A DNA stretch of 41,785 nucleotides, from contig PBDG01000022.1 of the NCBI GenBank assembly GCA_002717225.1, forward strand, positions 5,649 through 47,433. The letters run 5' to 3'. The position numbers were made by a program, and so were the translations under genes. The first letter of the stretch is position 1. Every line of letters begins with the position of its first letter. Below are positions 25,733 through 32,610 of the stretch, one piece after another. Source of the stretch: Rhodospirillaceae bacterium (lineage in GTDB: Bacteria > Pseudomonadota > Alphaproteobacteria > UBA828). The notes beneath the pieces were generated by a model. It worked only from the letters and a program-made list of their open reading frames with translations, did no database searches and was not told the origin of the DNA.

Positions 25733-28700
25733 ATGACAAAGCGACAAAACATCGAAAATGGCCAAGCCTTCAGTGCCGCCTGGCGCGATAACGCCGAACA
25801 GCTTGAACGGGATGGTCTCTACCGCGCATCCGACGAAAAAGATTCCTGCGGCGTTGGGCTGATCGCCGCAATTGATGGCAAACCTCGGCGAGATGTAGTG
25901 GAAGCCGGCATCGCAGCACTCAAAGCTGTATGGCATCGGGGGGCAGTCGACGCCGATGGCAAGACCGGAGATGGCGCGGGCATCAAACTCGAAATCCCTC
26001 AAAATTTCTTCAAACGACACGTTGAAGACACTGGCCATCAGCCGAAGCCCGGCCGCCTCGCGCTTGGTATGATGTTCTTGCCAAAAACTGATCTCAGCGC
26101 ACAGGAAACTTCGCGTGGCATTGTCGAGACGGAGATCTTACGCTTTGGCCACGGAATCTACGGCTGGCGCCAAGTGCCAATTGACCCCACGGTGATCGGC
26201 GAGAAGGCGAATGCAACTCGCCCAGAAATCGAACAGGTAATGATCTCAAACGACCGTGGTGTCGACGATGACCAATTCGAAATCGACTTGTTTATCATAC
26301 GTCGGAGAATCGAGAAGATCGCTCTCGATCATCATATCAAGGAGTTCTACGTCTGCTCCCTAAGCTGTCGGACAGTGGTTTATAAGGGCATGTTCCTCGC
26401 TGAACAGCTCACCGCTTTTTTCCCAGATCTTCTGGACGAGCGTTTCATCTCGAGCTTCGCCATATTCCATCAGCGCTATTCCACGAACACCTTCCCCACT
26501 TGGCGCCTCGCACAGCCCTTCCGCCTGCTTGCCCACAATGGCGAAATCAACACCATTAAGGGAAATGCTAACTGGATGAAGAGCCATGAGACCCGCGCGG
26601 CGAGCAAGGTTTTCGACGAATTTAACGAAGAAATTTTTCCGCTCATTGAACCAGGCGCATCCGATTCCATGGCTCTCGATTCGGTCATAGAGGCGCTGGT
26701 TCACGCTGGTAGGCCGATGCCGGCAGCGCAGTGTATGCTGGTGCCTGAATCTTGGTCACACCGCCCGCACATGCCGCAGACGCATCGCGACTTCTTCGCC
26801 TATTGCAATTGCGTGATCGAACCGTGGGATGGCCCGGCAGCACTCGCCGCCTCAGACGGGCGCTGGGTCATTGCGAGCATGGATCGCAATGGTCTCCGCC
26901 CTCTTAGGTATAGCGTTACCACCGACGGGCTGGTTGTCGTTGGCTCGGAGACCGGAATGGTTCCGCTCGATGAGAGCGACGTGATGGAGAAAGGTCGCCT
27001 CGGACCGGGGGAGATGATCGGCGTCCAGCTAGAAGAAGGCCGTTTCTATCATGACCATGAGCTCAAGGACATGCTAGCTGCACGCCACCCCTATAGCGAC
27101 TGGGTCAAAAATATTGTTGAGATGGATAGTCTAATCGGCGCTGAAAAAGAGCCTATTATTTACGACGTCGAGGAACTGCTTAACCGCCAACGGGCATTCG
27201 GCTACACCATGGAGGAACTTGAGCAAATCCTCCATCCCATGGTTGCTACCGGAAAGGAACCGACCGGCTCAATGGGCGACGACACGCCAATCGCGGTGCT
27301 CTCAAGGCAATATCGTGGCCTGCAACATTTTTTCCGACAGAATTTTAGTCAGGTCACCAATCCACCGATCGACTCGTTACGCGAATACGGTGTGATGAGC
27401 CTCAAGACCCGGCTTGGCAATCTAGGCAACATGTTTGCCGAGAGCAGAACCCAGACAGATCTTCTGATGCTCAACTCGCCGGTTTTGAGTAATGCCGAGT
27501 TCGCTGCCATGCGCCGTTATATGGGTGACCAGGTGGCTTGGATTGATTGTACCTTCGAAGCCGGTGAGGGCCATAACGAACTCACCATAGCAATGAACCG
27601 CATCCGCCGCGAAGCAGAGGAAGCTGTCAGAGGCGGTGCCGTACACCTCGTGCTGAGTGATGAGAACACCACTGCCGAACGCGCGCCGGTGCCAATGATT
27701 CTTGCCGCCGGTGGTGTGCACAGTCATCTCGTCAGAGAAAAACTACGCACCTTCACTTCAATCAATGTGCGCTCGGGAGAATGTCTCGATGTACATTATT
27801 TTGCTGTTCTTATCGGTGTCGGCGCAACAACGGTCAACGCCTATATTGCTCAGGAGTGCATCGCCGATCGTCAACGGCGCGGCTTGTTCGGCAACCTCAG
27901 CCTCGATGAGTGTTGCCAACGCTACCGCGCAGCGATCGATGCCGGTCTCCTGAAGATCCTGTCCAAGATGGGTATCTCGGTGCTCGGTTCCTATCGCGGC
28001 GCCTATAACTTCGAGGCGGTTGGTCTCTCCCGCGCACTTGTCGCCGAGTTCTTCCCCGGCATGAGTTCGCGGGTCTCGGGCATCGGCCTTTCCGGAATCA
28101 AACGACGCGTCCTCCGTTTACACAAAAATGCCCACGAGATCGCGCTAAAGACCCTGCCAATGGGAGGCCTTTATAAAGCCCGCAGCTCCGGCGAGGTGCA
28201 TGCTTTCGACGGCCGTCTGATTCACATGCTGCAACACTCACTGGCAACCGATTCTTATGCAACTTACAAGAAATATTCCGCGGGCGTGAGCAAGATGCCA
28301 CCGGTTCATCTGCGCGATTTGCTTGATTTGAAGAATCAAGACGAACCGGTAGCGTTGGAAGAGGTCGAATCGATCACCGAAATTCGCAAGCGTTTCATGT
28401 CGGGCAGCATGTCGCATGGTGCGCTTTCTCGCGAGGCACACGAAACTCTTGCGATCGCTATGAACCGAATCGGCGCCGCGTCGTGCTCCGGCGAAGGCGG
28501 CGAAGACCCTGCGCGCTACGAGCCCCGGCCCAATGGTGACAATGCTAATTCGGCAGTCAAGCAGATAGCCTCGGGCCGATTTGGCGTTACAGCAGAATAC
28601 CTCAACCATTGCCGCGAAGTCGAAATTAAGATGGCCCAGGGCGCAAAACCAGGTGAAGGTGGCCAGCTTCCTGGATTCAAGGTGAGTGAGGAGATTGCCC

Positions 28701-30277
28701 GCCTGCGTTACGCCACCCCCGGCGTAACCCTGATCTCACCGCCGCCGCATCATGATATCTACTCGATCGAAGACCTCGCGCAACTTATCTACGATCTCAA
28801 GCAAATAAGTCCGCAGGCCCGCGTATCGGTCAAGCTAGTAGCCGAGGCAGGCATCGGCACGATCGCGGCCGGCGTCGCAAAAGCCAAGGCGGATATCATA
28901 TTAATCTCCGGCCATAACGGCGGCACCGGCGCTTCACCACAGTCCAGCTTGAAATATGCCGGCGCACCGTGGGAAATGAGCCTAGCAGAAATAAATCAAG
29001 TGCTAACTCTTAACCGATTGCGCCACACCACGACGCTGCGGGTAGATGGTGGCCTTAAGACCGGGCGTGACGTAGTAATCGCGGCAATGCTTGGCGCCGA
29101 GGAGTTCGGCATTGGCACTGCCTCTCTGGTTGCCATGGGCTGCATCTTGGTGCGGCAATGCCACTCTAACACTTGCCCGGTCGGTATTTGCACCCAGGAT
29201 AGCGCGCTACGCGCGAAATTCGAGGGTACTCCAGAGAAAGTGGTCAATCTGTTCAGCTTCATCGCTGAAGAGGTGCGCGAAATCCTCGCATCACTCGGCG
29301 CCCGCACCCTCGATGAAATAGTTGGACGCAGCGACCTCCTGCGTCAAGTAAGCCGCGGCAGCCGCGACCTCGATGACCTCGATCTCAATCCGATTCTAGT
29401 GCAGGCTGATTCAGGCAGCTTCGCTCGCACCTCAACCCGTGAGGGCCGCAACGAGGTGCCTGAGAGCCTTGATGAGCAAATGATTCGCGACGTGGATGAC
29501 GCACTCGAAATACCTGAAAAAATGCAACTCGCCTATACAGTGCGCAATACGCATCGCACAATCGGTGCCAAGCTCTCCTCCAGCTTGACGCGGCGCTTCG
29601 GCATGACTGGCCTGCCACCGGATTATTTTACCGTGCGCATGCGCGGGGCCGCCGGCCAATCGCTTGGCGCCTTTGCTGTACAAGGGCTAAAGCTCCAAGT
29701 GATAGGCGAGGCCAACGACTATGTCGGCAAAGGCCTCTCCGGCGGTACCATTGTAGTCCGTTTAGCAACCTCGAGCCGGTTGATTTCCAACGAGAACGCG
29801 ATCATAGGCAACACGGTTCTCTATGGTGCAACATCAGGTAAGCTATTCGCCGCTGGCCAGGCCGGTGAACGCTTCTGCGTACGCAATTCCGGTGCGCTCG
29901 CCGTGGTTGAGGGTTGTGGCTCGAATGGCTGCGAATACATGACTGGCGGCGTCGCCGTCATTTTAGGTCCCGTTGGCGACAATTTTGCTGCCGGCATGAC
30001 CGGCGGCATGGCCTTCGTCTACGACACAAATGGCAGTTTAGAACAGCGTGTCAATCCAGACTCCGTGGTGTGGCAGCGTATCCAAAGCCGTCACTGGGAA
30101 AATATCTGCCACGGCCTGGTTCGAGAGCATCAAAAAGAAACACAAACCCGTTTCGTCGAGCGATTACTAGCGGATTGGGATCTCGAGCTAAGCAAGTTCT
30201 GGCAAATTTGTCCTAAAGAAATGATTCCCCGCCTTGAACACCCCCTAAGCGACAGCCAAATCGCCAAGACCGCGTAA
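25733..30277 (+). CDS. gltB: Glutamate synthase large subunit
   Basis: [28 protein letters not shown] (N-terminal Cys amidotransferase); [48 protein letters not shown]. Confidence 0.97.
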   Translation: [1514 protein letters not shown]

Positions 30278-30304
30278 TCAAATTTTACCAACTATGTAAC
30301 ACAC

Positions 30305-30340
30305 CAAATATTTGTATATTAGGCATAAAAACAAATATTT
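30305..30340. repeat. Palindrome CAAATATTTG with a second partial copy (CAAATATTT) upstream of the HD-GAF gene
   Basis: CAAATATTTG at 30305-30314 is a perfect palindrome; CAAATATTT recurs at 30332-30340. Confidence 0.5.
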
Positions 30341-30415
30341 TTAATAAATGCTCACATCTGGTAGAACAATCGCCAGGGCTAATCATATTTTTTGCTTTAG
30401 CTATCCAGGCGAATT

Positions 30416-31756
30416 ATGAGCACAATCTCGATACCTAGTTTTTTGGCCGTACTTAAGTCCAGAAGGGATCAGATATTTCCTGATTCATCCGGCCATTATT
30501 GGCAAGTCATATCCGATACCGCACAAACAGCCTTAAATATTATAAGTTCGTCTGACGCTCTATACCATGACGTTGAACACACATGCTTAGTCACTCTGTG
30601 TGGTCAGGAAATATTTATTGGAAAAAAGATTTTAGATGGAGATTTAACTGAGGAAGATTGGGTTTATTTTACTATTGCACTTCTACTGCATGATATCGGT
30701 TATGTACGTAATATACTTTCCGAAGACTCCGGACTCCTGCAAACAACATCGCTCGATGGGAAAAAACATTCGTTGACATCAGGAGACACCGACGCATCGC
30801 TCACCCCCTTTCATATTGAAAGAGGAAAACTTTTTATAGAAAATAGAAATTGGCCTGATGGCATAAACAAAAACATTATTTCCGAGATGATTGGGTACAC
30901 CGAGTTTCCAATACCTAAATCGAGAGAGCAAAAATCAGATAAATCTACTAAAGCAGAATTATTGGCCACCCTCGTTGGATCAGCCGACTTGATTGGACAA
31001 TTAGCCGATCCATCTTACGATATTAAAATACCACGACTGTATTTCGAATTTTTAGAAACTGGGACCGCTAATAATTTAGGATATCGCTCTGCAGAAGATC
31101 TCAGAAGGTCATACCCATCTTTCTTTTATAACTTCGTAAATCCAAATATCGCATTATCTATCAAATATTTAAATGCCTCACCAGAAGGGCAAAAATGGAC
31201 CTCTCTTTTAAATTACCATGTGTTTTCCCAGGAAAATCGAGCTATTTTAGAGCAGGATGGTGTTAAACTTTTACAAGAGATACACTCCTATTGCGGAGAT
31301 GCAGAGGATTTAGACAAGGTCATAGAATTCACACTAAGCAAAGTATGTTCATACCAATCGTGGCCAATAGGACACGCTTACAAAAGAGTTGATACGGACG
31401 CTGGGCCTATTTTATCAAGCAGCAAAATATGGCACTTATCAGAAAACAATGACTTGTTTGAAAAGTGGAAAAACATATCAGAGGATCACACATTTACATC
31501 TGGAGAGGGATTGCCGGGACGCGTTTTTCAGAAGGGGGAACCAGCTTGGATTACTGATGTAACTAAGGACAAAAACTTTCCAAGATCCGATCTTGCTTCT
31601 GATATCGGTGTAAAAGGAGCATTTGCGTTTCCAGTTTACGGAAAAATTGGGATAGGATTTGTTCTTGAATTCTACAGTCAGGAAGCTGAGGATTTAGATA
31701 GTTCTGTTTTATCATTTATGGAACAAATATCGTATGAAATAACAAATCACGTATAG
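30416..31756 (+). CDS. HD-domain putative phosphohydrolase with C-terminal GAF domain
   Basis: HD motifs: YHDVEHT, LLLHDIGYVRNIL, PFHIERGKLF, GSADLIGQLADPSY. GAF: WPIGHAYKRVD...SSSKIWHL...FTSGEGLPGRVFQKGEPAWITDVTKDKNFPR...AFAFPVYGKIGIGFVLEFYS. Confidence 0.85.
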   Translation: MSTISIPSFLAVLKSRRDQIFPDSSGHYWQVISDTAQTALNIISSSDALYHDVEHTCLVTLCGQEIFIGKKILDGDLTEEDWVYFTIALLLHDIGYVRNILSEDSGLLQTTSLDGKKHSLTSGDTDASLTPFHIERGKLFIENRNWPDGINKNIISEMIGYTEFPIPKSREQKSDKSTKAELLATLVGSADLIGQLADPSYDIKIPRLYFEFLETGTANNLGYRSAEDLRRSYPSFFYNFVNPNIALSIKYLNASPEGQKWTSLLNYHVFSQENRAILEQDGVKLLQEIHSYCGDAEDLDKVIEFTLSKVCSYQSWPIGHAYKRVDTDAGPILSSSKIWHLSENNDLFEKWKNISEDHTFTSGEGLPGRVFQKGEPAWITDVTKDKNFPRSDLASDIGVKGAFAFPVYGKIGIGFVLEFYSQEAEDLDSSVLSFMEQISYEITNHV

Positions 31757-31766
31757 GTTTAAGATA

Positions 31767-32561
31767 ATGATTTTCACCCGAATCACCCTGCAAGAGGTAA
31801 TAAAAGAAGTTGAAAATAACGGGCATTACTTGTTTTTCAATGATCCGGATGAAGAAAAATATTTAAAGGTTTTACTTGCCATGGCATTTGCTACAATGGC
31901 TAAAAGTGATAGCCTATATTTCTCTGCGGAAAACCTAGTTTCAAATGCAAAAGTTGCCCTAGAAGTATGTCGCGCATTATCGGTGCAAGGGGGACCGCCA
32001 GAAAAGCATTTCTATACTTCCAATTTTTTCGCTTCTGTATTGTTTGCAAATGTAGGGGTGATAAGGGGAATATTACGGGAAGATCAAGGAGATGAATATT
32101 TAGTAAATAAAAATACTCTCCAAAAAATATTACCAAATCATACGGATTCGATTTTGTGGAAACATCGTCGTCAGAGAAGCATTATTTATTTAAATAACAA
32201 TAAATTTACAAGTAGGACGTTAGATCTAAACGTTGTATCGTCAGCCATCGAAAACTCTGACTTCAGTCTTGACGTCGACCTAAATTCGTTATCCGAATTT
32301 GATAAATTGATAAGATCCACATTTATCATAGGTTTTTTATCGGGTGTCAATTTTGAAAGAAAATTGGTTCAATATTATCACTCAGCCGATGAAGGGGGTG
32401 CGTTAAGTAACTTAGGGTACAAAAATGTTAAGGAATTTAGGGAGAATTTTAAAGATTTTTTTTGGGGAAAATTATATGGTGAAGCTGCGGAAACACTGGA
32501 ATTACTGAAAACAACTGAAAACGGAAAATATTACGTATCATCTCTTTTTCAGCACGTTTAA
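31767..32561 (+). CDS. Degenerate HD-domain homologue lacking the HD metal-ligand motifs and the GAF domain
   Basis: Aligns with the HD half of the upstream protein: SDALYHDVEHT / SDSLYFSAENL; LLHDIGYVRNILSEDSG / LFANVGVIRGILREDQG; NNLGYRSAEDLRRSYPSFFYNF / SNLGYKNVKEFRENFKDFFWGK; ASPEGQKWTSLLNYHV / TTENGKYYVSSLFQHV. Starts 10 bp after the upstream stop. Confidence 0.8.
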   Translation: MIFTRITLQEVIKEVENNGHYLFFNDPDEEKYLKVLLAMAFATMAKSDSLYFSAENLVSNAKVALEVCRALSVQGGPPEKHFYTSNFFASVLFANVGVIRGILREDQGDEYLVNKNTLQKILPNHTDSILWKHRRQRSIIYLNNNKFTSRTLDLNVVSSAIENSDFSLDVDLNSLSEFDKLIRSTFIIGFLSGVNFERKLVQYYHSADEGGALSNLGYKNVKEFRENFKDFFWGKLYGEAAETLELLKTTENGKYYVSSLFQHV

Positions 32562-32580
32562 TAAACTATCAAATCTAAAA

Positions 32581-32610
32581 GAAATTGAGCCGAATTTATT
32601 TATCAATTTC
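32581..32610. terminator. Possible weak bidirectional hairpin between convergent genes
   Basis: Inverted repeat GAAATTGA (32581-32588) / TCAATTTC (32603-32610), 14-nt loop; overlaps the stop of the minus-strand FAD gene. Confidence 0.3.

Follow-up and report, generated by a model that had tools for sequence, protein, structure and literature searches.

As the earlier note had claimed, two open reading frames, ORF1 and ORF2, lie 10 bp apart in the window, i.e. the whole stretch of 41,785 nucleotides that was analysed. The locus comprises the following features:

25733-30277: gltB, upstream neighbour of ORF1
30280..32600, no strand: AT-rich accessory segment between gltB and the FAD oxidoreductase gene, recognised by its GC content and by the absence of the pair in congeners
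30416..31756, forward strand: ORF1, 446 aa, HD metalloenzyme of catalytic type (approx. residues 1-275) with a C-terminal GAF domain
30416..31243, forward strand: HD domain within ORF1 (residues 1-276), resembling class I phosphodiesterases in motif order and fold
31304..31744, forward strand: GAF domain of ORF1, residues 297-443, Pfam GAF_2 (PF13185), E=1.8e-7
31757..31766, forward strand: gap of 10 bases from the stop of ORF1 to the start of ORF2
31767..32561, forward strand: ORF2, 264 aa, pseudoenzyme of predicted HD fold with replaced ligand residues
32603-33814, opposite strand to the pair: FAD oxidoreductase gene, downstream neighbour

The alignment showed a complete ligand set for ORF1 (H51, H55, H92, D93, H133 and D191), and its AlphaFold model comprises an HD and a GAF domain with a pLDDT of 89.7; the GAF domain, which had been proposed before, was also recognised by Pfam. 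The HD half received no name from Pfam, and a PDB sequence search with ORF1 as query returned GAF relatives only. In a profile search, this half matched NCBIfam NF045583 (Npun_R2479 family HD domain-containing metalloprotein) with 249 bits and an E of 3.6e-74, and the same profile covered ORF2 end to end with 100 bits and an E of 9.3e-29. Since both scores lie below the curated equivalog cut-off of 400 bits, ORF1 and ORF2 are homologues of NF045583 and, by the cut-off rule, not members; nearly all scored relatives also fall under this value. The HD family is widespread (Cyanobacteria, Pseudomonadota, Chloroflexota, Myxococcota and others) and uncharacterised, and no paper naming Npun_R2479 was found in the literature. 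In one alphaproteobacterial genome (G145; L013, L029, L034, L035), the HD family is represented by four to five copies, with one copy split over two frames.

The pair showed a GC content of 0.371 compared to 0.548 for the rest of the window, and a GC3 of 0.33 (ORF1) and 0.31 (ORF2) compared to 0.62 for gltB, which bears out the AT-rich island described from the sequence. In G001, G002 and G004, the three congeners whose interval after gltB was readable, the pair is absent from this interval and other genes are located there. Based on these two observations, the window pair looks horizontally acquired, as had been supposed. The HD-GAF relatives closest to it show about 50% identity and are found in other contexts with a GC content of about 0.39-0.42. 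Since pair and flanks show similar GC contents in L037, L038, L040, L042, L008, L009 and L161 (the last determined via L027, a shorter copy of it), the AT-richness marks an acquisition at this locus and is not a trait of every pair. The interval itself (30278-32602 in the window) is variable in the genus: the window has the HD pair, G001 (L155) a small GFA-like gene, and G002 and G004 (L156, L157) larger PhoX-like and flavin-oxidoreductase-like genes, named by eye. Promoter and terminator scans gave no excess over shuffles.

An AT-rich, accessory pair in a variable interval could also represent a horizontally carried defence or other conflict module, and the locus had indeed been called defence-like. 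However, PADLOC gave no meaningful match (a partial methyltransferase match of 16 bits for ORF1, nothing for ORF2), no relatives were found in phage and viral collections, and the flanks comprise ordinary metabolic genes without recurring defence genes. The term was therefore abandoned, and a role of this kind is considered very improbable.

The degenerate HD homologue

ORF2 aligns with ORF1 over 236 aa with 22% identity (BLASTP, E=1e-13), and together with the match of both to NF045583 this agrees with the claim that it is collinear with the HD half. The alignment score of 63.9 bits compares to 30.4 bits for the best of 2000 shuffles of ORF2, by which a chance likeness is ruled out. At the level of families, the profiles of live and dead proteins were collinear over 279 columns with an E of 4e-76.

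In the register of ORF1, the substitutions in ORF2 are H51F, D52S, H55N, H92A, D93N, H133R and D191F. The motif losses listed in the earlier note thus stand for H51, D52, H55, H92, D93 and D191, while a detail differs for H133, which aligns with an arginine and is preceded by a histidine one residue earlier. This histidine is not conserved in other ORF2s, and no conserved histidine column was found at the metal-site positions across the ORF2 set, by which relocated histidine ligands are ruled out. Since the profile alignment is collinear and a conserved metal-site histidine is missing, the ligands have not simply moved within ORF2. An AlphaFold prediction based on a 36-sequence alignment resulted in a confident helical fold (pLDDT 91.5, pTM 0.89); a PDB search with the ORF2 profile gave nothing useful. 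Ligands elsewhere in ORF2 or a missing HD fold had been named beforehand as findings against the pseudoenzyme reading; no such ligands were observed, and an HD fold is predicted. Homology to an enzyme, a retained predicted fold and the absence of the catalytic residues are the characteristics of a pseudoenzyme, all of which ORF2 shows, and altogether the data support ORF2 as a homologue of the HD half that is degenerate but has retained its fold, rather than a random or decaying ORF.

A family-wide alignment in the numbering of the window ORF1 comprised 68 unpaired members, 16 ORF1s and 14 fully aligned ORF2s. H51, H55, H92, D93, H133, D191, R136 and Q195, among other positions, were identical in all 68 unpaired relatives and all 16 ORF1s, whereas H92, D93, H133 and D191 were lost in 14 of 14 ORF2s. 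The replacements at the lost ligand positions vary by group; for example, in L037, L038 and L040 the HD motif is changed to CN and D191 to Q, while in L020, L045, L048 and L063 HD is changed to FA and D191 to H. The pocket residues of the ORF2s in the HD-GAF group diverge widely. Residues specific to ORF2 recur, e.g. W at position 130 in nine of 11 ORF2s of the GAF-less and window type.

The ORF2s of the GAF-less pairs in L020, L045, L048 and L063 retain H51 and H55. Since these residues are kept and a histidine takes the place of D191, a metal site may persist in these four pseudoenzymes in residual or altered form.

Conservation and evolution of the pair

A survey of GTDB species genomes and whole genomes, comprising 80 plus further loci, was searched for a conserved adjacency of the two genes. 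The HD-GAF gene was found in 11 genomes (the window, L008, L009, L161, L037, L038, L039, L040, L041, L042 and L172), and in all 11 a degenerate HD-type ORF follows directly downstream. Six further genomes (L020, L044, L045, L046, L048 and L063) carry a pair of an HD gene without GAF and a dead HD gene, one of them, L048, being the cultured organism Oceanibacterium hippocampi. The pair therefore occurs in 17 genomes and is not limited to one, with gene order and close spacing conserved; the junctions range from a short overlap (L037-L040) up to 73 bp, and the frames are intact in all pairs. Within a pair, the live and dead proteins share 34-44% identity in the GAF-less type and 18-28% in the HD-GAF type. 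L040 is labelled Burkholderiales and has flanks in common with L037, an uncultured proteobacterium; it is possibly a misbinned contig. In the family of the window organism, L004, L007 and L010, two of them from congeners, each have only one HD gene of this protein family, which is located elsewhere and has no dead copy beside it.

Since the pair is kept together in 17 genomes, the dead copy is suggested to serve the live one as partner or regulator, and ORF2 is probably a dedicated partner pseudoenzyme. Among 386 genomes of the class, 16 contain a family member and four of these the pair, and no ORF2 without ORF1 was found. Another explanation would be that ORF2 acts on its own as a sensor or binding protein, whose HD pocket binds a nucleotide without hydrolysis, and which is co-transcribed with ORF1 but forms no complex with it. 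The retained fold with a lost catalytic site would fit this explanation, as would the four GAF-less-pair ORF2s described above, in which some pocket chemistry may remain. The absence of orphan ORF2s in the 386 genomes and the short-range ORF1 neighbour in every pair argue against it, and the wide divergence of the pocket in the HD-GAF group is more in line with a scaffold than with a conserved ligand site. A stand-alone sensor is thus regarded as unlikely.

In a 52-row tree, the 14 ORF2s formed one clade with a support of 96/95, which changed to 90/92 once the longest branches were removed. A separate duplication within the HD-GAF lineage was 6 log units worse, a difference that is not significant in the AU test (p-AU 0.16), and an independent loss in this lineage appears less likely. 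A single origin of ORF2 is most likely according to the sequences, and due to the long branches it is called likely rather than proven. The distances among ORF1s and among ORF2s correlated with r=0.91 over 14 pairs, part of which reflects shared descent.

The dN/dS of ORF2 was about 0.14 (L044/L046), 0.13 (L008/L009) and 0.03 (L042/L027), with dS near saturation in some comparisons. ORF2 evolves faster than ORF1, as seen from the dN of 0.119 compared to 0.024 between L044 and L046 and from the mean pairwise identity of 29% compared to 48%, but is under clear purifying selection. The higher rate alone would be expected for a functionless, decaying duplicate. This explanation is contradicted by the three dN/dS values, all well below 1, together with the intact frames in all pairs, and the confident predicted fold and the conservation of residues specific to ORF2, e.g. 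W at position 130, also speak against it; it is hardly credible. Neutral evolution of ORF2 and occurrence in a single genome had likewise been named as findings against the pseudoenzyme reading, and neither was observed.

Proposed function and related systems

A comparison of the ORF1 model with the PDB (Foldseek) gave PDE1B (4npv) as the best HD-fold match with an E of 1e-4 and a TM by target of 0.52. For the ORF2 model the best matches were PDE1B and PDE5, with probabilities of 0.99-1.0 but an E of about 0.08, none reaching 0.001; small HD nucleotide hydrolases, e.g. YpgQ, were also among the matches. The family profile matched PDE10A weakly, with an E of 0.02 over 47 residues at YHN..H..HD. 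Pfam PDEase_I gave no match for ORF1 and an E of 0.05-0.09 in two unpaired relatives.

A membrane class III cyclase (PF00211, E=7e-28) is the next gene after ORF2 in L042, L161 and L172, with a spacing of 25-27 bp in L161 and L042. The order of HD-GAF, dead HD and class III cyclase genes was observed at L042:6194-7471, L161:4818-6098 and L172:1792-3093, representing three species within a single genus of marine Alphaproteobacteria. Class III cyclases also directly adjoin unpaired relatives in four other lineages (L173, L060, L076 and L119/L120). Cyclases made up 3 of 151 immediate and 1 of 312 further neighbours (Fisher p=0.10), a suggestive difference based on small counts, and most loci, including the window, are without a nearby cyclase. 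No flanking operon is conserved across lineages, the only recurring neighbour of the pair being the cyclase in this one genus.

Based on the likeness to class I phosphodiesterases in fold and in the motif order YH(N/D)..H...HD...D, and on the cyclase neighbours, the hydrolysis of a cyclic nucleotide would be the most likely reaction, and a cyclic mononucleotide is tentatively proposed as substrate from these sequence features. It could also be that the pair represents another HD nucleotide hydrolase, e.g. for nucleotide or oligonucleotide processing, and that the phosphodiesterase likeness reflects the general HD fold. The YpgQ-type hydrolases among the ORF2 matches, the marginal sequence likeness to PDE10A and the lack of a cyclase neighbour at most loci are in line with this, while the top HD-fold matches of both models are catalytic domains of class I phosphodiesterases, an invariant first histidine in YH(N/D)xxH is shared with these enzymes, and a cyclase lies directly beside the HD gene in five lineages. 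Another HD hydrolase is therefore a realistic possibility, though not the favoured one.

Altogether, it is on balance assumed that the pair is one functional unit, in which ORF1, as the active HD metallo-phosphohydrolase, is combined with the dead paralogue ORF2, which arose by duplication and was kept as a dedicated partner. We infer a heteromeric partnership and a gating by the GAF domain, and a physical ORF1-ORF2 heteromer appears rather probable. An ancestral HD homodimer would have become a heteromer after the duplication, with ORF1 supplying the active site and ORF2 stabilising, activating or restraining it. In one lineage, ORF1 would have gained the C-terminal GAF domain, by which a small ligand could gate the activity, and the reaction would be the hydrolytic cleavage of a cyclic nucleotide or of a comparable nucleotide phosphodiester. 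In its boldest form, which we regard as possible but doubtful, the proposal would describe a bacterial signalling enzyme new to the literature, a class I phosphodiesterase-like hydrolase that is gated by its GAF domain and is an obligate heteromer. Its pseudoenzyme subunit would have been fixed by one ancient duplication and would since have almost lost its sequence likeness, while its linkage with the partner and, for one lineage, with a cognate cyclase was kept. If true, the compact bacterial pair with its graded stages would allow a test of the route from homomer to obligate heteromer, and the uncharacterised HD family would obtain its first functional hypothesis, i.e. the turnover of nucleotide messengers.

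Compared to NF045583, to which the HD half of ORF1 and the whole length of ORF2 are homologous, ORF1 comprises all the catalytic-site residues of the family and adds a GAF domain, whereas ORF2 is without every ligand residue. The HD-GYP c-di-GMP phosphodiesterases share the HD superfamily with the pair, but their structures match the ORF2 model much more weakly than the phosphodiesterases above do; a pattern search for HHExxxGxGYP found the motif absent from ORF1, by which an HD-GYP identity is rejected. The nearest solved HD folds are the catalytic domains of class I phosphodiesterases (PDE1, PDE5 and PDE10), which have the order of the YH(N/D)xxH and HD motifs in common with ORF1. Some mammalian class I phosphodiesterases also join GAF domains to this catalytic fold. 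In contrast to these enzymes, ORF1 lies below the detection by Pfam PDEase_I, carries its GAF domain at the C-terminus and is accompanied by a separately encoded dead paralogue.

Pseudoenzyme subunits are best known in eukaryotes, and no description of such a bacterial pair was found in open-licence papers. The trypanosomatid prozymes of AdoMetDC and deoxyhypusine synthase are eukaryotic, have unrelated folds and imply no pairing of adjacent genes, and an activation by ORF2 would be an analogy to them. Like ORF1 and ORF2, however, these systems combine a live enzyme with a dead paralogue, and there the dead paralogue allosterically activates its live partner (PMC5201418, PMC3663545).
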